The notes below the pieces were generated by a model. That model was not told the origin of the DNA and made no database searches. It saw only the letters and a program-made list of their open reading frames with translations. A stretch of 64,000 nucleotides of DNA from Luteimonas fraxinea (lineage in GTDB: Bacteria; Pseudomonadota; Gammaproteobacteria; Xanthomonadales; Xanthomonadaceae), in the NCBI RefSeq assembly GCF_021233355.1, contig NZ_CP089507.1:2791001-2855000 (forward strand), in the 5' to 3' direction. The position numbers and the translations under genes are program-made. Positions 6,306 to 46,971 of the stretch are shown piece after piece. Position 1 is the stretch's first letter, and every line of letters begins with the position of its first letter.

Positions 6306-6830
6306 GTGACCCGCATTCTCGGCATCGACCCCGGTTCCCAGCGCACCGGGGTCGGCATCATCGACGTGGATGCGGCCGGAAAGGTCACGCACGTGTTCCA
6401 TGCGCCGCTGGTGCTGGTGACCGCGGGCGAGTTTCCCGCGCGCCTGCGTCGCCTGCTCGACGGGCTGACCGCGTTGATCATCGAGCATCGGCCCGACGAA
6501 GTCGCGATCGAGAAAGTCTTCATGGCGCGCAATCCGGATTCGGCGCTCAAGCTCGGCCAGGCGCGCGGCGCCGCGATCGGCGCGGTGGTGCTGCGCGACC
6601 TGCCGGTGAGCGAATACGCGGCCACCGAGGTCAAGCTGGCGGTGGTCGGCCGTGGCAGCGCCGAGAAGGCGCAGATCCAGCACATGGTCGGGTTGATGCT
6701 CGGGCTGTCGGGCAAGCTGCAAGCCGACGCCGCCGATGCATTGGCGGTCGCGATCACGCACGCGCACGTCAGCGCCACCGCGAAGCGGCTCGGCGTCGGC
6801 GTGAAGCAGGCCTGGGGTCGGAAGGGATGA
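6306..6830 (+). CDS. ruvC: Holliday junction endonuclease RuvC
   Basis: Resolvase that nicks Holliday junctions after RuvAB branch migration. It has 174 residues (E. coli 173). The RNase H-like fold starts with [17 protein letters not shown], carrying the first catalytic aspartate. The catalytic glutamate lies in [20 protein letters not shown] and the late aspartates in [15 protein letters not shown]. The GTG at 6306 is the start, 8 bases after yebC, because the conserved N-terminus allows little else. ruvA follows after 115 bases, while ruvB lies 4.5 kb away, so the classical ruvCAB cluster is split. Confidence 0.96.
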
Positions 6831-11344: not shown

Positions 11345-12376
11345 ATGACCGCAGACCGCATCATCGCCGCCGACGCCACCCGCGAGGACGACGCCATCGA
11401 GGCGAGCATCCGGCCGCAGCGGCTGGACGATTACCTCGGCCAGCAGCCGGTCCGCGAGCAGATGTCGATCTTCATCGAGGCCGCGAAGCAGCGGCGCGAG
11501 GCGCTCGATCATGTGCTGATCTTCGGGCCGCCGGGGCTGGGCAAGACCACGCTGAGCCACGTGATCGCCAACGAACTCGGCGTCGCGCTGCGCGTGACGT
11601 CGGGGCCGGTGATCGAGAAGGCCGGCGATCTCGCCGCGCTGCTGACCAATCTGCAGCCGCACGATGTGCTCTTCATCGACGAGATCCACCGCCTGTCGCC
11701 GGTCGTGGAAGAAGTGCTGTATCCGGCGATGGAAGATTTCCAGCTCGACATCATGATCGGCGAGGGCCCCGCGGCGCGTTCGATCAAGATCGACCTGCCG
11801 CCCTTCACCCTGATTGGCGCAACCACGCGCGCAGGCCTGCTGACCGCGCCGCTGCGCGACCGCTTCGGCATCGTGCAACGGCTGGAGTTCTACAGCACCG
11901 AGGAACTGACCCGGATCGTGCGCCGTTCGGCGCAGATTCTCGGCCTGTCCTGTGAACCCGATGGCGCCGCCGAAATTGCGAAGCGCGCACGTGGCACGCC
12001 GCGTATCGCCAACCGTCTGCTGCGCCGTGTGCGTGATTACGCGCAGGTGCGCGCCGGTGGCCGCATCGATCGCGACGTGGCCAATGCCGCGATGCTGATG
12101 CTCAAGGTCGATCCGGAAGGCTTCGACGAACTCGATCGCCGCCTGCTGCATCTGATCATCGAGAACTTCGATGGCGGCCCGGTCGGCGTCGAGTCGATGG
12201 CGGCCGCGCTCAGCGAGGAACGCGGCACGCTGGAAGACGTCATCGAGCCGTATCTGATCCAGCAGGGCTATCTCGTGCGCACCGCGCGCGGGCGCATGGC
12301 GACGGTCAAGGCCTGGCGCCATCTGGGCCTGGAGCCGCGCCGCGACGCCACCGCGACCCCCGGCCACCTGTTCTGA
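11345..12376 (+). CDS. ruvB: Holliday junction branch-migration helicase RuvB
   Basis: AAA+ motor of branch migration, 343 residues. Walker [10 protein letters not shown] is at residues 61-69 and Walker B DEIH at 112-115. The sensor region [17 protein letters not shown] and the C-terminal winged helix ([17 protein letters not shown]) are all present. The start ATG at 11345 is the first in the frame. It opens a co-directional run with ybgC, tolQ, tolR, tolA, tolB, pal and cpoB, the common gammaproteobacterial ruvB-tol arrangement. Confidence 0.97.
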
Positions 12377-36016: not shown

Positions 36017-36301
36017 CTAACGTTTTGCATTCGCCCGCCCTTTGAAGCTAGAGATCAACTCAGCGAGGTCGTCATCCTCAGCGTAGAAGTAGGCAGTAGG
36101 AAGTTTGAGCACTTCCGCAATTCGCTGCAGAGTCTGAAGATCGGGCTGATGAACGCCGGTCTCGTAGCGATTGACTCTAGTACTGGCGACAAACTCGTCT
36201 AGACCTGCCTGGATACCCAATGCGCGTTGAGAGATGCCCTGCGCATCTCTTGCCTCTCTCAGCCTTCGGCTATAGACGGGCAGTGGCCCCCGATCAGCCA
36301 T
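36017..36301 (-). CDS. XRE-family transcriptional regulator, short paralogue
   Basis: A DNA-binding protein of 94 residues made of a single Cro/CI helix-turn-helix (about residues 10-66): SRRLREARDAQGISQRALGI, then VNRYETGVHQPDLQTLQRIA, then LPTAYFYAEDDDLAELISSF. It is closely similar along its whole length to the XRE protein encoded at 36412-36867, so the two are tandem paralogues. A perfect palindrome (36362-36378) lies 60 bases upstream of its ATG and is a candidate operator. Confidence 0.9.
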   Translation of the reverse strand: MADRGPLPVYSRRLREARDAQGISQRALGIQAGLDEFVASTRVNRYETGVHQPDLQTLQRIAEVLKLPTAYFYAEDDDLAELISSFKGRANAKR

Positions 36302-36361: not shown

Positions 36362-36378
36362 ACTACGTTTAACGTAGT
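36362..36378. promoter_or_regulatory. Palindrome 1, putative XRE operator
   Basis: ACTACGTT-T-AACGTAGT, with perfect 8-bp arms. It lies upstream of the short XRE gene. On the minus strand it is followed by TATCG, so it would overlap a TAGTAT -10-like hexamer. The same arms recur at 36924 and 36951. Confidence 0.75.
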
Positions 36379-36411: not shown

Positions 36412-36867
<456 letters not shown>

Positions 36868-36923
36868 GTGTCCATTTCCGTTTCAGACACAACAAAGACT
36901 CTGCCGAGCGGCTTGACATCGAT

Positions 36924-36940
36924 ACTACGTAATACGTAGT
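36924..36940. promoter_or_regulatory. Palindrome 2, putative XRE operator
   Basis: ACTACGTA-A-TACGTAGT, with perfect 8-bp arms. It lies between the divergent tailed XRE gene and the TonB receptor gene. A TTGACA hexamer (36913-36918) abuts it on the plus strand. Confidence 0.75.
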
Positions 36941-36950
36941 GTCTCCATTG

Positions 36951-36965
36951 CTACGTTTAACGTAG
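36951..36965. promoter_or_regulatory. Palindrome 3, putative XRE operator
   Basis: CTACGTT-T-AACGTAG, the same core as palindrome 1. It is 26 bp centre-to-centre from palindrome 2 and 114 bases before the TonB receptor start. Confidence 0.72.
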
Positions 36966-37079
36966 TAACGGAGGGTTTGCTTTGCGCACCGCCGAGGCAG
37001 CAGCACGCCGCTGCGCTTGTAGATGAATTACGCAGAGCAATACGAACTTGGGCCGGCAGCGAACGAAGGAGAGATATCT

Positions 37080-39503
37080 ATGGAATGCACAGGAAGTGGA
37101 AGGCACATGCCAATGATCGAGCGAATCTCAAAAGGATCGTTTGTTCTTGCGCTATTGATGACGAGCGCCGCGATAGCGCAAGACTCGCGGGAAGCAGTAG
37201 AAGCGAGTGAAGCTCGAGAAGACGCTACGAGGCCGTCAGCCGGACCTGTGCCGCCAATGGCGAGAGTTCAGGGATCTGATGCGACGGAACTCGACGCAGT
37301 AACGGTCACCGGCACCCGCATCCGTGGCGGCAACACGCCTTCGCCGGTAATCACCCTCGGCAGCGAGCGCATCCGCGAAGAGGGCTTCTCGGATCTCGGC
37401 GAAGTGATCCGCAGCGTGCCGCAGAACTTCAGCGGCGGGCAGAACCCCGGCGTGCTCAGCGGCAACATTTCAGGTGCTGGCAATGCCAACCAGAACATGA
37501 CGGGTGGATCGGGCCTCAACCTCCGCGGTCTGGGCGCTGACGCCACACTGACGTTGCTCAACGGCCGGCGCATGGCCTACGGCGGTTTTACGCAGTCGGT
37601 GGACATCAGCGCGATTCCGGTCGAGGCGGTGGAGCGCATCGAGATCGTCGCTGACGGGGCATCGGCCATCTATGGCTCTGATGCGGTCGGCGGCGTGGGC
37701 AATGTAGTGCTCAAGCGCGACTACGATGGCGTGGGCATTGGTGCGCGCTTGGGCGCGGCCACGCAGGGCGGGTTGTCCACGCGCGAGTACACGGTTACGA
37801 CAGGCGCTACGTGGTCGGGTGGCGGGATGATCGCCACGTACAAGGATGCATCCGTCGATCCGATCTACAGCGATAGGCGTGGCTACACCGAGCAATTGGT
37901 GGACCCCTCGACGCTGTATCCCGGCAGCGATCTGCGCAGTGGCCTGTTGAGCGCCCACCAGTCGCTGGGCGACGCAGTAGAACTGCGGGTGGATGCACTG
38001 CGCACCGAGCGCGATCAACTGCACCACTACAACTGGGCCGGGCGGCACAGCGTGGTCACGCCGCACACGATGACGACGCTGGTGGCCCCGAGCGCCGAGG
38101 TGTGGTTGCCCAATGACTGGAGTCTGTCGGTCAGCGGCGCATTTGGCCGAGGCACTCACGATCAGGTGCGCCGCGAGACGATCACCACCACCGGCGTCAC
38201 CAGCATTTCTGACGTGTGCTACTGCAACGAAAGCCGCAGTCATGAGATTGGCGCCGAGGGCCCGCTCTTCGCGCTACCGGCGGGGGACGCGCGTGTGGCA
38301 ACTGGCCTGGGCCAGCGCCGAAACACGTTTCGAAGTACCAATCACGTCACGGGCATTAACACTGTTGACGGTAGCGAGAGCGCGCGATTCGCTTATGCCG
38401 AGATCGATGTGCCGCTGGTCGCGCCGGCGCAGGGAAGGGCGGGGATTGAGCGCCTGTCGGTGACCGCGGCCGCGCGCGCCGAGGACTACAGCAGCTTTGG
38501 ACAGGTCACCACGCCGAAGCTCGGCCTGATCTATGGCCCCAGTCCCGACATGACGTTGAAGGCGTCATGGGGCAGATCGTTCAAGGCGCCCACGCTGTTC
38601 GAGCGGTATGCATCCGCCGACGCCTGGCTGTACCACCCCAGCAGCTTTGGGGGTACGGGTTATGCAGCCGATGCTGCCGTGCTGGCAGTGACCGGCGGCA
38701 ACCGCGATCTCGACCCCGAGCGCGCGACCACCCGGTCTGTGTCCCTGGCTTGGCATCCCAGCGCGTTGCCGGGGCTGGAAGCAGAACTGACATGGTTCCA
38801 GGTGGCCTACACCAGCCGGGTCATCCAGCCTATCGCAAACCCCACCCAAGCGCTGAGCAGCGCGCTGTATGCACCCTTCGTGGATTTGTCGCCACCACTG
38901 ACGGCACAACAGGCGTTGCTAGACCGGGCCGATACGTTTCGCAGCGCGACTGGTATGCCTTATGACCCAGACAAGATCGCAGCCCTCGTGTATCTGCAAT
39001 ACGTCAATGTGGCGCGCCAGGACATCCGGGGTGTCGATGTGTCCGGAACCTATCGCACCGATCTGGCGCTGGGCTCGCTAACGCTTCGGGGCTCGGCAAG
39101 CTGGCTGGATAGCAGCCAGCAGACGATCCCCGGGCAGGCGGCGTATGACTTGTCGGGCACGTTGTTCAGTCCGGCCAAGCTCAACGCGCGGCTAGGTGGC
39201 GTGTGGAAGCGGGGAGGCTTCTCGGGGTCCACATTCTTCAACCACAGCAGCGGCGTGACGAACCGGTTGGATGCGGTGAAGTCCGCGTCCTTCACCACGA
39301 TGGATCTATCGCTTCGCTACGCGACCGACCGGCAAGGCGGCGTGCTCGCCGGCTCGGAGGTCGCGCTTGCAGTAGACAACGTGTTGAACCGCGATCCGCC
39401 CCAGTACCAGGTGACGGCGCCGCTCTACGTGGCCCCCTACGACTCGTCGAACTACTCGCCGATCGGTCGTTTTGTCTCCCTGTCTGTCGCCAAGCACTGG
39501 TGA
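37080..39503 (+). CDS. TonB-dependent outer-membrane receptor of the lasso peptide locus
   Basis: Outer-membrane active-transport receptor of 807 residues. A signal peptide ends AAIAQDSR. It is followed by a TonB-box-like segment (ELDAVTVTGTR), a plug domain (NTPSPVITLGSERIREEGFS, LNLRGLGADATLTLLNGRRM, VERIEIVADGASAIYGSDAV) and a 22-strand barrel. The C-terminus ends in the aromatic RFVSLSVAKHW. The ATG at 37080 is chosen because AAGGAG (37066-37071) lies 8 bases before it; an ATG at 37023 has no such site. Directly downstream is the isopeptidase gene. In proteobacterial lasso clusters such receptors are thought to re-import the peptide or a derivative. Confidence 0.93.
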   Translation: MECTGSGRHMPMIERISKGSFVLALLMTSAAIAQDSREAVEASEAREDATRPSAGPVPPMARVQGSDATELDAVTVTGTRIRGGNTPSPVITLGSERIREEGFSDLGEVIRSVPQNFSGGQNPGVLSGNISGAGNANQNMTGGSGLNLRGLGADATLTLLNGRRMAYGGFTQSVDISAIPVEAVERIEIVADGASAIYGSDAVGGVGNVVLKRDYDGVGIGARLGAATQGGLSTREYTVTTGATWSGGGMIATYKDASVDPIYSDRRGYTEQLVDPSTLYPGSDLRSGLLSAHQSLGDAVELRVDALRTERDQLHHYNWAGRHSVVTPHTMTTLVAPSAEVWLPNDWSLSVSGAFGRGTHDQVRRETITTTGVTSISDVCYCNESRSHEIGAEGPLFALPAGDARVATGLGQRRNTFRSTNHVTGINTVDGSESARFAYAEIDVPLVAPAQGRAGIERLSVTAAARAEDYSSFGQVTTPKLGLIYGPSPDMTLKASWGRSFKAPTLFERYASADAWLYHPSSFGGTGYAADAAVLAVTGGNRDLDPERATTRSVSLAWHPSALPGLEAELTWFQVAYTSRVIQPIANPTQALSSALYAPFVDLSPPLTAQQALLDRADTFRSATGMPYDPDKIAALVYLQYVNVARQDIRGVDVSGTYRTDLALGSLTLRGSASWLDSSQQTIPGQAAYDLSGTLFSPAKLNARLGGVWKRGGFSGSTFFNHSSGVTNRLDAVKSASFTTMDLSLRYATDRQGGVLAGSEVALAVDNVLNRDPPQYQVTAPLYVAPYDSSNYSPIGRFVSLSVAKHW

Positions 39504-39544
39504 CGTGCGCCGGCAATGCTGGTGACGAGGTCGAGGAAATTCCA

Positions 39545-41626
39545 ATGACGAATGATCGAACACGCGGCCTCACGGCTGGCGTTCTGATGTGCGTGCTCGC
39601 CGCCCCGTCGGTTGCCAGCGCGGTTGCTCCGCGGCAACTGTTGGAGATCGTGGACATCGCGAATCCCGTGATGTCGCCGGACGGCAGCCGCGTGGCGTTT
39701 CGCACGGAGCAGGCCTCGATCGAGCGCAACACTTACGACACGATTTGGTACGTGCAGGGGCGGGAGGACCTCGCGCCGCGCCGCGTTGCCGAAGGCGGCG
39801 TGCCGCTACGGGATTCGGCTGGCGTGGCGTTGCCCGCCAGTGCCGTGTGGTCGCCCGACGGTCGTTGGTTGTATTACCGCGCGTTGATCGATGCGCGCAT
39901 CGGAATCTGGCGTGCGGCCGGAGACGGCACCGGCGCTGCGCCGGTGACAGACGAAGCGGGGGAAGTGCAAGAGGTCCGGCTCGGCGACGATGGGCGACAC
40001 CTGCACTACAGCGTGGGCGCTGCGCGCGAGGCTGTCGCGATGGCGGAAACGGGCGAATACTACCGAGGCATTCGTATCGAGCCGGACGTGCCGATCGGTC
40101 AGAGCTTGTTCCGTTCGGGCAATGTCGAAGGGCGTATGGCGACGCAGCGGTTCGCGGAGATCTGGTTCAGCCGCCGGAACCTGATGTCGGATACGCCGGT
40201 TCGTTGGTATGCAATCGACCTGGCGACCGGTCTGTCCGCGCCGCTCCACGATGCGCGCCGCGCAGATGGGCAAACCACGCCATCGGTGCCGGACGGCGTT
40301 GAGGGCGAGTTGTGGAAGTCGATCGCGCAGCCGGACGGGGAGGGCGTCGCGCTGCTCACCCGCACTGGTGAGACGGACGGCCAACAGCAGAGACCAAGCA
40401 TCGTGCTGTCGGCAACGGCTGATGCGCGTAGGGGACAGCTTGCCAAGTGCCTAGCCGAGGCATGCACCGGACGCTCGATCACTGACGTCCAGTGGCGCCC
40501 GCTACTTCGCGAAGTGCTGTTCACGTCTCGCGATCCTTCCGAAGGCTGGGCGCAGTCGGTCCATCGCTGGCACATCGAGACGGGAGATGTGCTTCCGGTG
40601 GTGCAGTCGCAAGGCTTGGTAAACGGTGGCGGCCGCGACCCAGCTACAGGCTGTGCAGTCTCGTCCAATGCCATGGCATGCGTCACGGCAGATCCGATGC
40701 AGCCGCCAAGACTGGAGTGGATCGAGATCGACACCGGTGACAGCCGTGTGTTGTTCGACCCCAACCGAGGGCTGGCCCAGGACATGTCGCGTCTGCCTGC
40801 AGTGCAAAGACTGCACTGGACCGATGAGAAGGGCCGCGGATTTTCAGGCCTGCTGTATCCGGCGCGACACGAGGATGACGTGGCGCCGCCGTTGTTCGTG
40901 ACCTACTACAACTGTCCAGGCTTCGTGCGGGGTGGCGTGGGGGACGAGTGGCCCCTCGCCTCACTGGCAGGCGCCGGGATTTCGGCGCTCTGCATCAATC
41001 GCCTGCCCAACTACACAATGGACGCGGTCGAGCGTCACGGCGAGGGGCTGGAGGCCGTGCGCAGCGTCATCGAGCTTCTGGCGGGCCAGGGCGCGATCGA
41101 CCCGACACGCGTGGGCATGGGCGGGCTGAGCCTGGGCGGTGCGATTACGCTGTGGACCGTCGCCGAATCAGACTTGATCGCGGCTGCGTCGATCGCCAAT
41201 CCCGTCGTCTCGCCGCTGTACTACCTGATCGGCAGCATGAAGGGCGACATGTTCTTCGATGGCCTGCGCGACATGTGGGGACTGGAATCCCCGGAACAGA
41301 CGCCCGAGCGCTGGCAGGCCATCTCACCGGCTTTCAAGCTCGACAGGATGAAGGCGCCAATCCTGTTCCAGCACTCCGAGCAGGAATACATGTACGCGCT
41401 GGATTACGTGATTCCATTGCTAAGACGGAGTCAGGCAGATCTCTACGTGTTCCCCAATGAGCCCCACCAGAAATTCCAGCCACGTCACAAGCTCACCGCC
41501 TATGAGCGGAATCTGGACTGGTTTCGGTTCTGGCTACAGGGCTTTGAGCATGCCGATCCAGCAAGGCAAGGCGAGTACGACCGCTGGCGACGGATGCGCG
41601 AGGCGTCGGCGGCATGGCCGCGATAG
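39545..41626 (+). CDS. Lasso peptide isopeptidase (S9 family, AtxE-like)
   Basis: Secreted serine peptidase of 693 residues. A signal peptide ends PSVASAVAPR. An N-terminal beta-propeller (PD40-like VMSPDGSRVAF, AVWSPDGRWLYYRAL) is followed by a C-terminal alpha/beta hydrolase domain. The likely triad is Ser529 (GLSLGG), Glu612 (HSEQEY) and His641 (NEPHQKF). A Glu as acid residue, rather than Asp, is the mark of characterised lasso isopeptidases such as AtxE2, with nearly the same numbering. The enzyme opens the macrolactam bond, linearising a lasso peptide. The ATG at 39545 has GAGG upstream; longer in-frame starts overlap the receptor gene. Confidence 0.93.
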   Translation: MTNDRTRGLTAGVLMCVLAAPSVASAVAPRQLLEIVDIANPVMSPDGSRVAFRTEQASIERNTYDTIWYVQGREDLAPRRVAEGGVPLRDSAGVALPASAVWSPDGRWLYYRALIDARIGIWRAAGDGTGAAPVTDEAGEVQEVRLGDDGRHLHYSVGAAREAVAMAETGEYYRGIRIEPDVPIGQSLFRSGNVEGRMATQRFAEIWFSRRNLMSDTPVRWYAIDLATGLSAPLHDARRADGQTTPSVPDGVEGELWKSIAQPDGEGVALLTRTGETDGQQQRPSIVLSATADARRGQLAKCLAEACTGRSITDVQWRPLLREVLFTSRDPSEGWAQSVHRWHIETGDVLPVVQSQGLVNGGGRDPATGCAVSSNAMACVTADPMQPPRLEWIEIDTGDSRVLFDPNRGLAQDMSRLPAVQRLHWTDEKGRGFSGLLYPARHEDDVAPPLFVTYYNCPGFVRGGVGDEWPLASLAGAGISALCINRLPNYTMDAVERHGEGLEAVRSVIELLAGQGAIDPTRVGMGGLSLGGAITLWTVAESDLIAAASIANPVVSPLYYLIGSMKGDMFFDGLRDMWGLESPEQTPERWQAISPAFKLDRMKAPILFQHSEQEYMYALDYVIPLLRRSQADLYVFPNEPHQKFQPRHKLTAYERNLDWFRFWLQGFEHADPARQGEYDRWRRMREASAAWPR

Positions 41627-41638
41627 ACCGCACGCGCC

Positions 41639-43363
41639 TCAAGTCTGATGACGTACCCAGTTCTCGATGGCGCACAGGTCGAAGATGCGCATGAAACCAT
41701 CGTCCAGATCGTCGTGTCGGCGATCGAAGAAGCGCTGCAGGGCGGTGGCATCCAGCAGACCATGGCCCTCCAGCGATCCCTGCAGGAGGTAGTCCCGCAG
41801 GAGCGGCTTATTCCGCCGATAGACGGCGCCCGAGTAGTTCATGAAAGTGCCCTTGCTCCGGCGATGCAGGATCTTCGCGGGCAAATCATCCGCAAACGCA
41901 GACCGGGCAACGGAGCGGTTGTAACCGCCCTCGATCCACATCCAGCTCGGCACCTTGAGGCAGGCCTCTACCACGGGCTGGGACAGCAAGGGCATACGCA
42001 GGTGAGATGTCGTCGCGCGAGCAACGCCATCCCGGAAGATCTGCGCGCCCGCGAGATCGAAGATGCGCTCCCGGTCGCCAGGCAGCGAGTCGGGAGGCGA
42101 GGCGAACCATGGGTGGAGACTGATCGCGCTGCGGTGGGCGGTGTCACGGACGAATGACAAGTCAGGAACACGGGGTGGCTTCGGAGGGGAGAGCAGCTTC
42201 TTTATGGTTAGCCGGCACGCTTTCCAGAAAGTGCATTGATGCAGCTCCGCCAGGTCGCGAGCTGCGCATGCGGCAGCCAGCAAGCCGCGCTCCCGGTACG
42301 CGTCGGCCGCAGGGGCAGCGGTTTTGATGTAACCAAACGCCGTGTCACCGCCACCGCCCGAAAAGAAGCTGCGTATGCCTTGCTCTTGCCCAATGGCTTC
42401 CTTCAACGTGTTCGCAGCGTTCTGAAGGAACCAGGTGCTGGGGGCGACGGCATTCGCCGGGGGCGGGAAGTCGAATGCGGCGTCTTCGACGCGCAACGTT
42501 CTGACATGAAGATATTGGCCGAGCACGCCGGACATCGCGGTCGCATAGTCGCGTTCGTCAGCACCAGGCACTGCCGTGACCAGATTGCAGCAAGTGACGC
42601 GGGCCGTTGAGTGGCGCAGGCAGGCCGCGACGATCGACGAATCCAGGCCGCCCGACAGCTCAAGCAAGACGTCGCCGTCGGCTGCAGCCCAAGACTCAAC
42701 GGCGGCGGTGACGCTCGATCGAACAGCTGCGGCTGCTTCAGGCGCACTGCGATAACGCTGGTCACGGGTTGCGAACGTCCATGGGGTCCACAGTTCGTCC
42801 GTAGTCGCGGCGTCGCCGGAAATCCGCAGTCGATGGCCCGGAAGAAGCTCGCTCACGTCCAACAGACCTGTCGATCCGGTTTTAAGGTGCGGGTAGATCA
42901 GATTTTCCTTGATGAAGCTCCAGTCCACAGCGCGGCGAATCACGCCTGCGTCGACCATCGCCGATACGTCTGAAGTCACGCACCCAGAGGCGATGGAGTA
43001 CACGCAGGCCACGCCGCCTGAGGGATCTCGTATCGTGTCGAACTGCGCCCAGTCGTCAGCGGGAAATTCAAGGACGATGTAGTCACCCCAACACTGTTCG
43101 ATCAGGTAGCGGGTTAGTTTGATGTCCGCAGGGATTTCGGAGTGAGTCGAACCTGTCAGCGGTGTGCCGTCTGCGCGCCGAAAGGCATGACCGACCAGAA
43201 GTGCCCGCGCATGAAGTCGAGTGACAGGCGTGTCGGCCGAGACATATAGAGAAAAGCGTGCGTGCGTCAGCACATCAGTGAGTCCAGCGGCGCGAAGCGA
43301 CTCGCCGATCTGGTTTTCGTTTGCAGTCAGAGAATCACCGAAAAGGGCAGCGAATCGGTACAT
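41639..43363 (-). CDS. Lasso peptide macrolactam synthetase (C protein)
   Basis: Asparagine-synthetase-like enzyme of 574 residues that adenylates the ring Glu/Asp side chain of the core and closes the isopeptide bond to Gly1. An N-terminal glutaminase-like domain lacks the catalytic Cys2 of true class II amidotransferases (it begins MYRFAALFGD). The synthetase domain carries the PP-loop SGGLDSS at residues 237-243. FSGGGGDTAFGY follows and RSKGTFMNYSGAVYRRNKPL lies near the C-terminus. Its ATG overlaps the stop of the protease gene as TGATG. It converges on the isopeptidase gene, 12 bases apart. Confidence 0.94.
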   Translation of the reverse strand: MYRFAALFGDSLTANENQIGESLRAAGLTDVLTHARFSLYVSADTPVTRLHARALLVGHAFRRADGTPLTGSTHSEIPADIKLTRYLIEQCWGDYIVLEFPADDWAQFDTIRDPSGGVACVYSIASGCVTSDVSAMVDAGVIRRAVDWSFIKENLIYPHLKTGSTGLLDVSELLPGHRLRISGDAATTDELWTPWTFATRDQRYRSAPEAAAAVRSSVTAAVESWAAADGDVLLELSGGLDSSIVAACLRHSTARVTCCNLVTAVPGADERDYATAMSGVLGQYLHVRTLRVEDAAFDFPPPANAVAPSTWFLQNAANTLKEAIGQEQGIRSFFSGGGGDTAFGYIKTAAPAADAYRERGLLAAACAARDLAELHQCTFWKACRLTIKKLLSPPKPPRVPDLSFVRDTAHRSAISLHPWFASPPDSLPGDRERIFDLAGAQIFRDGVARATTSHLRMPLLSQPVVEACLKVPSWMWIEGGYNRSVARSAFADDLPAKILHRRSKGTFMNYSGAVYRRNKPLLRDYLLQGSLEGHGLLDATALQRFFDRRHDDLDDGFMRIFDLCAIENWVRHQT

Positions 43364-44037
43364 CAGACGCTCCTGATCGCTGTGTGGCAGCGGACGTTTC
43401 CGACTGTATCGTTCAGGACGAGGTCGCGTGCCTGCACCCAGCAATGCGCAGAGAATGGATCCAGCGCGACGCCGAACACGAGCCGCGTCCGGAGACGTCG
43501 TCTCCGAAGAAAGCGGGTCAGTGCAATGGAGTCGACAAGGCAGCGCATCTTCACCGGAACGAATAAACGCGCGCGCCGAAAAGCGGCGGATGTAGTCAGA
43601 AGTTGCGCGGTGCTTTCCATCGAGCAGCGCGCAGGCGTGCCGGCGATCTCTTCGCTGCGAACGTAGTCGTCGAGAACGCTCTCGAGTGTGGTCATCCGAA
43701 GTCGAATCCGCGTGTGAATCACGAGCAAGAACACTTCAAGGAACTCCACGACGTGGGTGCGCGTGCCTATCTCGGCCATCTCCATCGCACTCTGGGAAGG
43801 TAGCGGTGCAAGGGGCCGCCTTTCGGTGGACGAGCCAAATTTCTCCGCGAGCACGCCCTTCTGGATCAACTGTCCAACGCAAGTCTCGTCGGGTGCGCCG
43901 CCCGAAAAATAAGCAAGAAGTGCTGTCTCCAGATCCTTCCCGAGTCGGAAATAGCGATCTCGGCTAATGTCCAGGAATACAAGTCGACTACCGACTTGGC
44001 AGTACGAAATCTGATGTGCGAGGACGTATCGAGTCAC
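43363..44037 (-). CDS. Fused RRE and lasso peptide leader protease (B protein)
   Basis: Bifunctional B protein of 224 residues. Its N-terminal ~85 residues form a PqqD-like RiPP recognition element (YCQVGSRLVFLDISRDRYFR) that binds the leader. The C-terminal ~130 residues form a transglutaminase-like cysteine protease (Transglut_core3). The Cys-His-Asp triad is Cys166 (MRCLVDS), His198 (SAHCWV) and Asp210 (LNDTVG). It cuts the leader after the conserved Thr-Lys. GGGAGG is only 1 base from the ATG at 44043 but 7 from the GTG at 44037, so GTG is preferred. A hairpin separates it from the precursors. Confidence 0.92.
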   Translation of the reverse strand: MTRYVLAHQISYCQVGSRLVFLDISRDRYFRLGKDLETALLAYFSGGAPDETCVGQLIQKGVLAEKFGSSTERRPLAPLPSQSAMEMAEIGTRTHVVEFLEVFLLVIHTRIRLRMTTLESVLDDYVRSEEIAGTPARCSMESTAQLLTTSAAFRRARLFVPVKMRCLVDSIALTRFLRRRRLRTRLVFGVALDPFSAHCWVQARDLVLNDTVGNVRCHTAIRSV

Positions 44038-44060
44038 GCGCATGCCTCCCTTCAGCAGCA

Positions 44061-44088
44061 AAAGGGGCGCGCCGTTGTGGCGCGCCCC
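44061..44088 (-). terminator. Intergenic hairpin between precursor A2 and the B gene
   Basis: Read on the minus strand, GGGGCGCGCC-ACAAC-GGCGCGCCCC is followed by TTTT: a perfect 10-bp GC stem with a short U tract. It starts 8 bases after the A2 stop and ends just before the B ribosome binding site. It probably works as a leaky terminator, making precursor transcript more abundant than BC transcript. Confidence 0.85.
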
Positions 44089-44096
44089 CTTACTTC

Positions 44097-44246
44097 CTAG
44101 TCCTCGGCGATTCCGGGCATGGTCGTGTTGCCCATGTCCTCGCCGAGAAGTGCGCCGCCCTTGGTGTCGACACTTGCGACACCAATCAGGATCTCGTCTT
44201 CGCTTGGCGCACCAGCGACACGAGTTGCTTCTTCTGTGGTCTTCAT
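44097..44246 (-). CDS. Lasso peptide precursor A2, xanthomonin-like
   Basis: A 49-residue RiPP precursor. Residues 1-29 are the leader, starting MKTTEEATRVAG and ending VASVDTK, with the required Thr at position -2. The predicted 20-residue core is GGALLGEDMGNTTMPGIAED. Gly1 and Glu7 would form a seven-residue macrolactam as in xanthomonins (GGPLAGE-type rings); Asp8 is the alternative acceptor. Bulky Met9 or later residues may act as plugs, and the C-terminal tail may be trimmed. GGAG lies 8 bases before the ATG. It is the second of two precursor genes and is followed by the hairpin. Confidence 0.92.
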   Translation of the reverse strand: MKTTEEATRVAGAPSEDEILIGVASVDTKGGALLGEDMGNTTMPGIAED

Positions 44247-44295
44247 GATCGAGTCTCCGAGTTGCGGGAAGCAGAAGCTTTCTCTGCCTGTCCAG

Positions 44296-44436
44296 TCAGC
44301 TTTCGGAAATCCCGGGAATGAAGGGATCGCCGATGTCTTCGCCGACAAGAGCGCCACCCTTCGTCTCGACGCTCGCGACGCCGAGCTCGATCACCTCGTC
44401 CCGCACGTCGGCGGGGATGTTGTCGTTGGTCTTCAT
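44296..44436 (-). CDS. Lasso peptide precursor A1, xanthomonin-like
   Basis: A 46-residue precursor, too short for usual gene calling. The leader MKTNDNIPADVRDE...VASVETK is 26 residues long and ends Thr-Lys. The predicted core is GGALVGEDIGDPFIPGISES. It shares GGAL(L/V)GED(M/I)G and (M/I)PGI with A2, plus the leader end GVASV(D/E)TK. Glu7 is the expected ring acceptor. AGGAG lies 6 bases before the ATG. Being first in the operon, it should be the most strongly transcribed. The A2 start is 49 bases downstream. Confidence 0.92.
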   Translation of the reverse strand: MKTNDNIPADVRDEVIELGVASVETKGGALVGEDIGDPFIPGISES

Positions 44437-44497
44437 TGCCGTCTCCTACGGTTGTGTCATGGGAGGATTCCATGACGAAGCGAGCGTAGGCACCACG

Positions 44498-44546
44498 AAA
44501 AATAATTCTCAAATGACTATTGTTTGACTACGGAATAATTAAATCC
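44498..44546 (-). promoter_or_regulatory. AT-rich promoter region of the lasso operon
   Basis: About 50 AT-rich bases in an otherwise GC-rich region, upstream of A1. On the minus strand they include TTGAGAATTATTTTTC, which looks like a half of a Fur-type or iron-stress box, and nearby CAAACAATAGTC. No -35/-10 pair is clear. The GntR regulator gene lies just upstream. Confidence 0.45.
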
Positions 44547-44617
44547 GAAGTGTGATCGGATGCTCTGTGCTGCAGTTCTAGGTTGGACGGTGCTGCGCAG
44601 TCAGCTGACTGATCAAG

Positions 44618-45247
44618 TCAGTGCAGGTGCTCGCTCTGCTCGATGAGCAGCGCGACAATCTTCGGTACAAGCTGTTTGCGCCGATCGTGGTAAGCACTGA
44701 TACCTGTCTTCAGTGCGGTAACGTCTCGGTCTCGCCAAGCTGTGTGCAAGTCGGCAAACTCGGCATGTACGTTGTCGATCAAACTTTCCTTAGCGCGACG
44801 CACAGGCGCGAGCTGATCATTGATGCGTCGTACCGCGTCGTGAAGCGACCGCTTGCCGGTTTCCTCGGCTATGGCATCGAACAGCTTCCATGTGGCCTTC
44901 GCTAGATCGCTGTCGTCTCCCAGTGTCAGCAGCTTCCGGTGACGGTGCGGAGTCTCGCTCCAGCCGATCTCACAGGCCACCAATAAGAGACGCTCCATCC
45001 ACTCGTAGCGGTCACGCAACATTAGATCGCTAAGCAGCGGCACGAAGAGACCGCCGCGCGCGTGGTCCGAGATCATGCCTTCGCCGATAAGCCGATATAG
45101 CGCGAGGCGAACGGGCGTCTGGCTGGTCTTGAATTCCCGGGCCATTGCAGCCGGCTCGATTCGTTGGCCTGGCACGTACCGACCAGCCTGCAGAGCGCGA
45201 CGGATGCGCTCATAAAGAAACGTGCTCTTGGTGTGGATCGCGTTCAT
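44618..45247 (-). CDS. GntR-family transcriptional regulator
   Basis: Regulator of 209 residues. The N-terminal winged helix has STFLYERIRRALQAGRYVPG, the recognition part SQTPVRLALYRLIGEGMISD and wing ARGGLFVP. The C-terminal all-helical region is FCD-like (about residues 80-205) and would bind a small effector. The ATG at 45247 has GGAG 7 bases upstream; earlier in-frame sequence is not GntR-like. It is the gene upstream of the lasso precursors on the same strand, with 181 bases between, and is the likely local regulator of that operon. Confidence 0.88.
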   Translation of the reverse strand: MNAIHTKSTFLYERIRRALQAGRYVPGQRIEPAAMAREFKTSQTPVRLALYRLIGEGMISDHARGGLFVPLLSDLMLRDRYEWMERLLLVACEIGWSETPHRHRKLLTLGDDSDLAKATWKLFDAIAEETGKRSLHDAVRRINDQLAPVRRAKESLIDNVHAEFADLHTAWRDRDVTALKTGISAYHDRRKQLVPKIVALLIEQSEHLH

Positions 45248-45705
45248 CGCGGAACTCCGTGTCGGCGTAAAGCGTCGTCCTGTGACGAAATTACTACAGC
45301 TCTGCCTTGCGTGCGATTCCATGCGCGCTATCACGAAAGCCCCGCTAGAGGCGTCTCCAAGAACTTCCGCTTTCGGCCGATAGCGGAAATCGAAGCTGCG
45401 CGTCGACCAACAGCGGCCCATATTCATCGGAATGATGTCGCGTCGATGATGCGAAACAGGGTGAACGCCGCAACTATCCACATAGCGCTCCGCGCTTTCG
45501 GCAATGCGAGACATGCAAGGGAGAATGCGAGGAACTCGTCAACCACACTGGCAGACGCATCTCCGCCGCCGAGCAGCGACAAAGTGTCTGCGCAGATTGA
45601 TAAAAATTGAACTTGCTCATGCCATTTGAAGGCAAAAAGCGTCCGGTGAGCTGAGACTTAAGGGGCGTGGTGGAATGGGGCGGCGCTTCTTCAGGAACCG
45701 CGTGC
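45248..45705. other. Gap between lasso locus and effector module
   Basis: These 458 bases hold the short palindrome and no supported gene. Reading frames crossing it lack ribosome binding sites and protein character. Confidence 0.5.
45365..45388. repeat. Short dispersed-type palindrome
   Basis: TTCCGCT-(TTCGGCCGAT)-AGCGGAA, 7-bp arms. CGCTTTCGG...AGCGGA elements of this type are scattered in many proteobacterial genomes. It lies in the gap between the GntR gene and the effector gene. Confidence 0.6.
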
Positions 45706-46971
45706 TTAGGCGCGCTCGAAGCCTCGATGCGCCTCAACCGCATGCTCCGCATGCTGGCCTAAGATGGCGAGTTGAGCGGTCTGAGCATCCCTAAAGATCG
45801 AAGAACTCTCGCTTTGAGGCGGGATAGGCGCTGTCAGGTCGACGTGCGCCACCTGCGCCGGGTGGTTGCCGCGGATCGTCACGCTGTCCCTCCCGATATC
45901 CACGCGGAGGGAGGCATGGTCCCCAATCCGAGCGATTTTTGCCGCAGCAGTGAACTGCGCGAGTCGGTCATCTGAGATTGCCGCGCCTTCGGGCATTCGC
46001 TCAGCAAGGGCGCGCCGGACGTTCTGAGCAAGCGGCCGCGAATTGATGTCAGTTGCAGCGACCGCCGTTTCCGCATCGCGCGTGACTGAGGGCGCCTCGG
46101 CGAGAGTGAATGGACTCTTCGCGATCGTGCGATAGGGGTCAGCGGGATGTCGCTCATCGCGACTGGCGATCCTCTCTTGCCGAAGCGCCCGCGTATCGTT
46201 GAGTTCGGCGATCAAGCGTTCGTCCCGGACCGTGGAGATACGAGGTGGCATGGGCACGGGGCTGCCTGCATGCTGCTGCACCTCTGCCCAGCTTTGATCG
46301 CGCTGGGAATAGATGTAGCTGTGGCTCACCGAGCCGATCATGTTGGGGTCGGTGTTCGGAAGCGCGGAATTCGCCGCCATGCGCGCTGCGGTCATGTCAG
46401 CGACATACTGGCCCGCGCGCGCAATGCTGCTGAGCGAAGAGAAGTCAGTGTGCGTCCTGACCTCGTCGAGGGTGGATACGCCGCGGTAGATGCCGAGCTT
46501 TTGGTTGTCGAGCATGCCCGACCAGATCTCCTCCATCGCGGCAGGGCCACCCTTGCGCTTGGCCATCTCCATAAGTTTGCGGGGCGTCCAAGCCTCTTTG
46601 GCGATTCCCGCGTTCTCGAATGACCGGTCGTGCACACGCGTCACGTCGACTGCAGAGAGATTGAGCGCGCGCACTGGCTCGTTCTTACGCCTAGCCTCCT
46701 GACGCTCGGCTAGATCCCGCCGCATCAGGTCGACGCCAAAATTCTCCCAGTCCCGTTCGGTCATGCTGGGGCGGCTCGCCCGCACCGCGGACTGCGCAAA
46801 GTAGTTGGCGACTTGTCCGGGCACGTTGTCGTTCCGAACAACGCCAAGCGCAAGGAGGCCATAGCCATCATTGCCTGACTTCTGCGCGAGGTAATTCCAG
46901 TAAAGTTCGCGATTGCCGTTCTCAGCATAAAAGCTGAGGATCTCCACGTCCTTGTTGTTCAAGCCACTCAC
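45706..46971 (-). CDS. Putative X-T4SS effector with XVIPCD-like C-terminus
   Basis: A 421-residue protein. The N-terminal part begins LNNKDVEILSFYAENGNREL and contains GNDGYGLLALGVVRNDN; I recognise no enzymatic motif, so the toxic activity is unknown. The last ~110 residues match the Xanthomonas VirD4-interacting (XVIPCD) pattern: PLAQNVRRALAERMPEGAAI, RLAQFTAAAKIARIGDHASL, VTIRGNHPAQVAHVDL. The GTG at 46971 has GGGGAG about 7 bases upstream. It follows the lipoprotein gene on the same strand by 17 bases, consistent with an effector-immunity pair. Confidence 0.75.
   Translation of the reverse strand: MSGLNNKDVEILSFYAENGNRELYWNYLAQKSGNDGYGLLALGVVRNDNVPGQVANYFAQSAVRASRPSMTERDWENFGVDLMRRDLAERQEARRKNEPVRALNLSAVDVTRVHDRSFENAGIAKEAWTPRKLMEMAKRKGGPAAMEEIWSGMLDNQKLGIYRGVSTLDEVRTHTDFSSLSSIARAGQYVADMTAARMAANSALPNTDPNMIGSVSHSYIYSQRDQSWAEVQQHAGSPVPMPPRISTVRDERLIAELNDTRALRQERIASRDERHPADPYRTIAKSPFTLAEAPSVTRDAETAVAATDINSRPLAQNVRRALAERMPEGAAISDDRLAQFTAAAKIARIGDHASLRVDIGRDSVTIRGNHPAQVAHVDLTAPIPPQSESSSIFRDAQTAQLAILGQHAEHAVEAHRGFERA

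Follow-up and report, generated by a model that had tools for sequence, protein, structure and literature searches.

A probable xanthomonin-type lasso peptide locus with two precursors in Luteimonas fraxinea and a conserved hairpin ahead of its first precursor gene

The window analysed here is a stretch of 64,000 nucleotides from Luteimonas fraxinea (contig NZ_CP089507.1, positions 2,791,001 to 2,855,000), whose genome consists of a single contig of 4,008,183 bases. Positions 37080-45247 of the window very probably (we put it at about 0.85) hold a complete class II lasso peptide cassette of the xanthomonin type with two precursors. The region contains genes for a TonB-dependent receptor, an Atxe2-type isopeptidase, a cyclase (C), a protease with an RRE domain (B), two precursors (A1 and A2) and a GntR regulator. 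On the minus strand the order is GntR, A1, A2, B and C, and the receptor and isopeptidase genes face them from the plus strand. Every part named in a first-pass annotation of this DNA was confirmed at its place, the RRE by its fold only. A conserved hairpin ahead of A1, a possible regulatory element of isopeptidase-type lasso loci, is treated after the cassette itself. The parts of the cassette are:

37080..39503, plus strand: TonB-dependent receptor, plug and barrel (PF00593, 121 bits; PF07715, 65 bits)
39545..41626, plus strand: lasso isopeptidase (NF033523, 'Atxe2 family lasso peptide isopeptidase', 598 bits, cut-off 400)
41639..43363, minus strand: cyclase C, asparagine-synthetase-like (PF00733, 105.8 bits; SGGLDS motif, residue 237)
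43363..44037, minus strand: protease B, a transglutaminase-like cysteine protease with N-terminal RRE (NF033537, 72.5 bits, cut-off 33)
44061..44091, minus strand: GC-rich hairpin between A2 and B, 13-bp stem with a T run at its end
44097..44246, minus strand: precursor A2, 49 amino acids, core GGALLGEDMGNTTMPGIAED
44296..44436, minus strand: precursor A1, 46 amino acids, core GGALVGEDIGDPFIPGISES
44618..45247, minus strand: GntR/FCD regulator (PF00392, 43 bits over a cut-off of 27; FCD, 22.8 bits, under the cut-off of 24.3)

The isopeptidase matched the AtxE2 structures 5txc and 5txe (E 2e-52 and 6e-52), and its Ser, Glu and His aligned with the active-site places of AtxE2 at GLSLGG, QHSEQEY and NEPHQK; we take these three residues to be its catalytic triad. 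Its N-terminus looks signal-like by eye. The open frame of the receptor runs from 37023, and the start at 37080 was preferred because the Shine-Dalgarno-like AAGGAGAG stands just before it. The cyclase exceeded the cut-off of PF00733 and stayed under those of the narrower NCBIfam cyclase models, and its start ATG overlaps the stop of B. The start of B was placed at the GTG at 44037, shorter than the open frame, because many of the listed database relatives are 224-225 amino acids long. In an alignment of 42 sequences, the columns C166 and H198 of B were invariant and D210 was conserved in at least 90%. Neither Pfam nor NCBIfam gave a match to its RRE. The four top Foldseek hits of its AlphaFold model (mean pLDDT 86) were lasso B1 RREs (5v1v, 5v1u in two chains, and 6jx3), with probabilities of 0.94-0.98 but E values of 0.18-0.47, none under 0.001. 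By its modelled fold, B would carry the RRE that is expected at a class II lasso locus.

Both precursors were confirmed where they had been predicted, each with Thr at leader position -2 and with Gly1, Glu7 and Asp8 in the core. Both cores are cysteine-free and would form no disulfide, which fits a class II lasso peptide. A1 passed the curated cut-offs of Subterisin PF24178 (47.5 bits, cut-off 27) and benenodin NF033522 (44.3 bits, cut-off 33). A PDB search returned only chance hits for A1 (E 0.62 and above) and none for B. Three points weigh against the assignment as a whole: A2 scored under both curated cut-offs (21.5 bits with PF24178 and 30.5 bits with NF033522); no exporter was detected among the ten genes scanned, the flanks beyond those not being searched; and the GntR gene was missing from 3 of the 65 related loci in which it could be tested. 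A related Sphingomonas cluster without an ABC transporter is described in PMC11006600.

Related loci were collected by searching for C in 52 genomes of the genus, in a contig collection (12 loci) and in 395 family genomes, of which 47 gave a match at E 1e-60 or better. The nearest named relatives of the cyclase came from Lysobacteraceae bacterium NML93-0399, Luteimonas, Xanthomonas, Rhodanobacter and Dyella. In the genus, the match next below the lasso cyclases was at E 3e-44 (one divergent locus, L073), and the one after it at 2e-10; because of this drop, the search probably missed few lasso loci of the genus. As loci were fetched by similarity to the window cyclase, very different lasso systems (such as L073, with a C 29% identical) are under-counted in the survey. 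L072b, the second fragment of a broken C, was left out of all counts and L072 out of the tree. The script found no precursor for L091 or for the first C of L063, and seven duplicate loci were also removed; the first C of L063 does have a precursor at -337, with Glu8 and a hairpin, which stays outside the counts.

The gene arrangement was well kept across the 67 loci: B was present in 65, the isopeptidase faced C in 65, and in 62 of the 65 loci that could be tested GntR lay upstream of B-C; the receptor stood behind the isopeptidase in all 31 loci that were long enough to test (the other 36 were too short). As it recurs in relatives from two families, the arrangement is more than chance. In Lysobacteraceae bacterium NML93-0399 (L035), C is 80% and the isopeptidase 84% identical to those of the window, the gene order is the same, and the cores GGALVGEDIGDPFIPGISEG and GGALLGEDMGNTTLPGIAED each differ by one residue from the window cores; unlike the window, this locus is without the Xre gene and the palindromes described below. 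Its 21.7-kb stretch could be aligned with window positions 28001-60000 only as one block, 37281-45298, as if the cassette moves as a unit. The L. fraxinea genome itself holds two more lasso loci (L004, G000:C1 3934000-3953000, and L005, 1520000-1539000), where B, C, isopeptidase, receptor and GntR all have matches in place, with the cores GPAGINEFVGTLMGSGISDE and GGVIATEGFGGLPMPGISED, both having Glu7.

The idea that the window locus is decayed or silent and makes no product appears quite improbable. Some relatives do look decayed (L040, L072 and L068), but all seven genes are open in the window, the stop of B and the start of C overlap, and the same gene order is found in L035 with a highly similar C. 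Among the decayed-looking loci, the matches to B and isopeptidase are split by long gaps in L040, C is interrupted by a stop in L072, and the isopeptidase and receptor matches of L068 are spread over two frames or pieces. The leader hairpin is present in each of the three.

The window cyclase fell into a clade of 21 rows with those of the Xanthomonas xanthomonin loci (SH-aLRT 99, in a quick tree without bootstrap). These loci carry GGPLAGEEIGGFNVPGISEE together with second cores of the GGPLAGEEMGG type, and GGPLAGEEIGGFNVPGISEE is the core of P0044, to which NCBI gives the name 'lasso peptide xanthomonin 1'. The loci for xanthomonins I and II (Xanthomonas L036, L075-L079 and L081-L085) resemble the window in their gene order (a precursor pair, B, C and isopeptidase) and in the GG-x-L-x-G-E core. 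They differ in having GGPLAGEE where the window has GGAL(V/L)GED, in the core tails, which are IGDPFIPGISES and MGNTTMPGIAED in the window, and in a C that is about 57% identical. As judged from sequence, the window locus is a xanthomonin orthologue that would add two members to the known family; the xanthomonin type with a likely Glu7 ring, proposed at first pass, is thus borne out by GGPLAGEEIGGFNVPGISEE at the same kind of locus and by the shared cyclase clade. In the two-precursor loci of this clade, core position 9 was I or V in the distal gene and M in the proximal one (by eye), L037 with V being the sole exception. Because of this consistent difference, the precursor pair looks like an old duplication that has been kept together.

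Two other known systems were compared. A ring of seven residues had already been predicted in 2015 for a Stenotrophomonas lasso peptide (PMC4675943); this predicted peptide of Stenotrophomonas acidaminiphila resembles those of the window in its ring and its kind of leader, but its core is GILQGNEPMGGEPVPGISEE and a single precursor was reported. The AtxE2-type loci of Asticcacaulis and Sphingomonas (PMC11006600) likewise have a divergent isopeptidase and a TonB receptor, but belong to the Alphaproteobacteria.

A protein search returned 717 precursors, and the core comparisons that follow cover the 120 of these that were listed. The exact window precursors appeared only in their own clusters, P0006 and P0061, with three contigs each. 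Core 1, of A1, differed from the cores of P0009, P0022, P0034 and P0036 in the last residue only, and core 2, of A2, differed from that of P0037 in one residue and recurred exactly in P0066 and P0091, behind other leaders. The first-pass annotation had taken both cores to be new and had named an identical core as grounds for refuting this. Its view holds in part only: core 1 is set apart by nothing but its last residue, and core 2 is refuted as new at the level of sequence records, though not as a described peptide. No description of either core was found in the titles and abstracts of the literature, most subscription papers lying outside the search. By eye, Glu7 was present in all 120 listed precursors, and P0092 has Ser rather than Thr at -2. 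The window peptides, as read from these comparisons, appear to be ordinary members of a large family.

Glu7 is the likely ring acceptor in both window cores. It was invariant in the 23 unique cores of the clade (C at least 53% identical, the same 21 rows), in which position 8 was E in 10, D in 8, V in 4 and F in 1; Thr at -2 was found in 85 of 85 precursors. On a tree of 64 cyclases, the acceptor position changed 5 times against a mean of 14.1 after shuffling (0 of 200 shuffles as low), although this clustering is inflated by near-copies such as 11 Xanthomonas rows. These data suggest that C, or something inherited with C, goes with ring size. Both window cores also have Asp8, which speaks against Glu7, and Glu8 is the predicted acceptor in 12 of 60 family loci. 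Closure on Asp8 to an ordinary eight-residue ring nevertheless seems the least probable of the alternatives considered here, since position 8 is V or F in five clade cores that all keep Glu7, the acceptor position clusters on the cyclase tree, and the three D7+E8 cores lie among Glu8 cyclases, away from that of the window.

A precursor was found for 65 of the 67 C rows, 60 of them in the family of the window, and the predicted acceptors of these 60 were Glu7 in 45, Glu8 in 12 and D7+E8 in 3. The ring of seven had been called a rare size, which is not supported in this lineage, where Glu7 is predicted in three quarters of the family loci examined and at all three loci of the L. fraxinea genome; the supposed rarity probably reflects which peptides were characterised. 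The rings of the Asticcacaulis and Sphingomonas AtxE2-type peptides are presumably larger. As the seven-residue ring is the commonest prediction among the examined loci of the lineage and clusters on the cyclase tree, the determinant of ring size could be tested by cyclase swaps. Columns 328, 348, 457 and 509 of C differed most between Glu7 and Glu8 rows and are candidates for such residues, but the Glu8 rows amount to about three lineages, the columns have exceptions, and no claim is made for them. Some of these columns lie near the GGGGD and KGTF stretches, and they are phylogenetically non-independent.

The leader of A1 contains the following elements:

44442..44447, minus strand: Shine-Dalgarno sequence AGGAGA of A1
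44456..44476, minus strand: conserved leader hairpin, GTCATGG-N7-CCATGAC
44483..44488, minus strand: -10-like box TACGCT, 6 nucleotides before the hairpin
44507..44512, minus strand: -35-like box TTGAGA, 18 nucleotides from the -10 box

The odds are, by a little, that one cis-acting RNA, so far undescribed, is common to the lasso precursors of two families (Xanthomonas/Luteimonas and Rhodanobacter/Dyella): a 5'-terminal hairpin at a fixed 6 nucleotides from the -10 box that would serve as a dedicated 'lasso RNA' setting the lifetime or translation of the message. Its consensus, GUCAUGG-loop-CCAUGAC, lies immediately before the Shine-Dalgarno sequence of the first precursor and ends 14-23 nucleotides ahead of the start codon. 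In a set of 62 distinct 58-base leaders, compared with 1240 shuffled controls, stems of at least 6, 7 and 8 pairs were found in 62, 59 and 45 leaders, against 426, 153 and 51 of the controls. The conserved element was accepted in 61 of the 62. An AGGAG Shine-Dalgarno sequence was present in 57 leaders and a TANNNT -10 box in 51, with TTGAAA or TTGAGA 18 nucleotides from it in 33. The first G of the hairpin stood 6 nucleotides past the -10-like box in 61 of the 62 leaders, about where transcription should start.

The named stem paired in 86.3% of alignment cells, compared with 19-49% when it was slid along the alignment. Double-changed cells numbered 36 against 16.7 in shuffled alignments (0 of 500 as high), double-changed pairs 6 against 4.1 (8 of 500) and further pair types 15 against 12.5 (30 of 500), these shuffles leaving the relatedness among leaders in place; one stem pair was UA in 45 leaders, CG in 14 and UG in 3.

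The specificity of the hairpin was followed with a covariance model, which training loci match by construction; absence elsewhere is free of this effect. In the L. fraxinea genome the three lasso loci were matched at E 4e-9 to 1.5e-8 and the next best place at E 3.5. Among the 52 genomes of the genus, 17 had a match at E 1e-4 or better, exactly those with a full lasso cyclase, and there was none in the remaining 35; three matches at E 0.03-0.05 lay outside lasso loci. In 397 genomes of the order, the model matched 26 places in 25 genomes of the second family, besides one overlapping match on the reverse strand. At each of the 26 a lasso precursor follows directly, and 21 of these leaders were outside the training set; the precursor of L125, missed by the script, was found by reading the sequence. 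Across 370 genomes of the class, only that of the window matched at E 0.001, with none in the 369 others. Searches of more than 40 genomes used stricter filters, by which weak matches are lost. Rfam gave no hit in the leaders of the window, L106, L114 and L123 at E up to 1. The sole Rfam hit in 36800-45400, a CRISPR repeat model inside the isopeptidase gene, was sub-threshold (22.5 of 42 bits) and was discarded. No description of the hairpin was found in the literature search of titles and abstracts, most subscription papers again falling outside it. The existence and specificity of the hairpin are well supported by these sequence comparisons, and it may serve to find lasso precursors, including orphans without B or C, with no protein query.

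Several observations weigh against a conserved RNA structure. The leader of L058 is doubtful, as it has neither the promoter pattern nor the GG/CC portion of the stem, and in the genus the model missed it together with L063b, whose hairpin is divergent (the distant L073 was the third lasso locus of the genus without a match). RNAalifold retained a stem of 6 pairs with a covariation term of only -0.46 and double changes in 2 of the 6, and the three outer pairs of the stem were unpaired in 17 to 32 of the 62 leaders. The window leader to codon 5 folded at -14.2 kcal/mol with a modest z of -2.3, and five relatives had z values of -0.7 to -1.9, one of them, L045, taking another fold; five of these six leaders had been cut one base short of the stem.

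The main alternative, that the hairpin is a DNA operator over the transcription start, for GntR or another regulator and with no RNA structure, is possible but distinctly less likely. Both arms are strongly conserved in primary sequence, the distance to the -10-like box is fixed in 61 of 62 leaders, and a GntR gene lies next door in 62 of 65 loci, which speaks for an operator. However, the two arms are separated by anything from 1 to 7 nucleotides, a variation that would turn the half-sites round the helix, and the element is kept in L040, L070 and two orphan precursor loci, in which no GntR gene was found. In addition, 6 of the 7 non-Watson-Crick cells in the 6-bp stem are G-U, a weak point as three of them come from sister Xanthomonas. 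Because the arm spacing varies, the element is kept without a GntR gene and the mismatches are mostly G-U, action as RNA at the 5' end of the message is favoured.

More doubtful is that a double site for CsrA/RsmA, formed by a GGA at the top of the hairpin and the AGGA of the Shine-Dalgarno sequence, represses translation of the precursor. The genome has a CsrA gene, and by the rule for CsrA sites the pieces are there, with GGA in the hairpin of 54 of 62 leaders and AGGAG following it in 57, but in the consensus stem the hairpin GG forms pairs with CC instead of being exposed in an open loop, GGA is missing in eight leaders, and AGGAG is simply a good Shine-Dalgarno sequence.

For the hairpin acting as RNA, the function that we prefer is protection of the precursor message from its 5' end, matching the GC-rich hairpin after the precursor stop; 5'-terminal hairpins can stabilise mRNA. 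A stem of at least 8 pairs follows the precursors in 54 of 64 loci, and the exceptions are mostly Xanthomonas, where a hairpin lies between A1 and A2 instead. For astexin-1, PMC7549694 (Table 2) lists a hairpin whose removal helps expression. Two other functions were considered and set aside. In L035, CTCCTACGG pairs with CCGTAGGAG as an anti-Shine-Dalgarno sequence might, but the -10 box is the better reading of this sequence, given TANNNT in 51 of 62 leaders. The hairpin of astexin-1 is, we assume, situated between A and B. An upstream reading frame was suggested by the AUG of the 3' arm, which is in frame with the precursor in several loci (MTQPKETEM...), but no frame is conserved: by eye, it ends at UAG in the window and L035, and in Xanthomonas the AUG is out of frame.

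The hairpin model also revealed precursors that stand apart from biosynthetic enzymes. In Luteimonas granuli (G014), two further matches precede precursors with the cores GLAGDGEPYGAIVLPGIAED and GGGGATNEPYGRLIVPGIVEE, found only through the model:

L144, about 6400-6610, minus strand: orphan precursor
L144, about 12020-12230, minus strand: orphan precursor

Each of the two faces a receptor gene, with one isopeptidase gene between them, and the 13-kb stretch gave no match to B, C or GntR. These orphans may use the enzymes of the adjoining complete locus, L052.

On the other side of the cassette, two genes for Xre-type helix-turn-helix (HTH) proteins and three palindromes precede the receptor:

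36017..36301, minus strand: second Xre-type HTH protein (PF01381, 41.4 bits)
36363..36377: palindrome CTACGTTTAACGTAG, upstream of the second HTH gene
36412..36867, minus strand: Xre-type HTH protein, divergent from the receptor (PF01381, 39.8 bits)
36925..36939: palindrome CTACGTAATACGTAG, between the HTH gene and the receptor
36951..36965: palindrome CTACGTTTAACGTAG, between the HTH gene and the receptor

The whole genome has three exact copies of CTACGTNNNACGTAG, all in the window and between or before the two Xre-type genes and the receptor. The count itself is unremarkable, as with one mismatch the backward control was equal (4 and 4) and with two mismatches 8 of 100 window shuffles reached three matches; it is the placement, not the number, that is remarkable. 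Among 57 testable loci, palindrome and divergent Xre gene occurred together in 29, the palindrome alone in 1 (L040), the gene alone in 2 (L066 and L090) and neither in 25 (Fisher 8.6e-13, uncorrected for relatedness). Eight loci with CTACA half-sites have Xre proteins 48-53% identical to that of the window, compared with 60-100% in the 21 loci with CTACG (window included). Because the palindrome and the gene co-occur and the type of half-site tracks the distance between Xre proteins, the data point to the Xre protein as the putative reader of the palindrome. GntR had been the first candidate for this role and was dropped, as the co-occurrence favours the Xre protein. The Xre-type protein at 36412-36867 has a long tail of Lys/Ala and Lys/Thr repeats.

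The gene content and order, the Glu7 invariant in the clade, the conservation and specificity of the hairpin and the co-occurrence of palindrome and Xre gene are all read from the DNA; from these we infer the chemistry, how the peptides are exported and imported, and what the hairpin does, as follows. A sigma70-like promoter would fire so that the mRNA starts at or beside the conserved hairpin, and the hairpins before A1 and after A2 would flank the precursor message and shift output from the enzymes towards the precursors. The RRE of B would then bind the leader, at LGVASVETK in A1 and IGVASVDTK in A2, B would cut after the residue behind Thr(-2), and C would join Gly1 to the side chain of Glu7 with the tail threaded. 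The peptide would leave the cell, be re-imported by the receptor and have its ring opened by the isopeptidase, while GntR and, where present, the Xre protein on its CTACGTNNNACGTAG sites would adjust the biosynthetic and uptake sides.

Precursors with several cores in one chain were also seen, at L042:8983-9267 (Luteimonas lumbrici), where the precursor stands before B and C, and in the proteins P0241-P0254. Each core has an 11-residue start ending in E-PLG, EF(I/L)G or similar, with Glu8, and is preceded by its own (L/I)G-x-AS-x-ET-x leader motif; among the 14 database relatives, three cores were counted in six and two in eight. The titles and abstracts of the literature gave no mention of multi-core lasso precursors.

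Beside the GntR gene, the protein at window positions 45706-46971 resembles the Smlt3024 family of type IV secretion effectors (252 bits, under the cut-off of 800). From 36 kb onward (to 64000), beginning just ahead of the cassette, the G+C content is about 60%, down from about 67%, which would fit acquired DNA.

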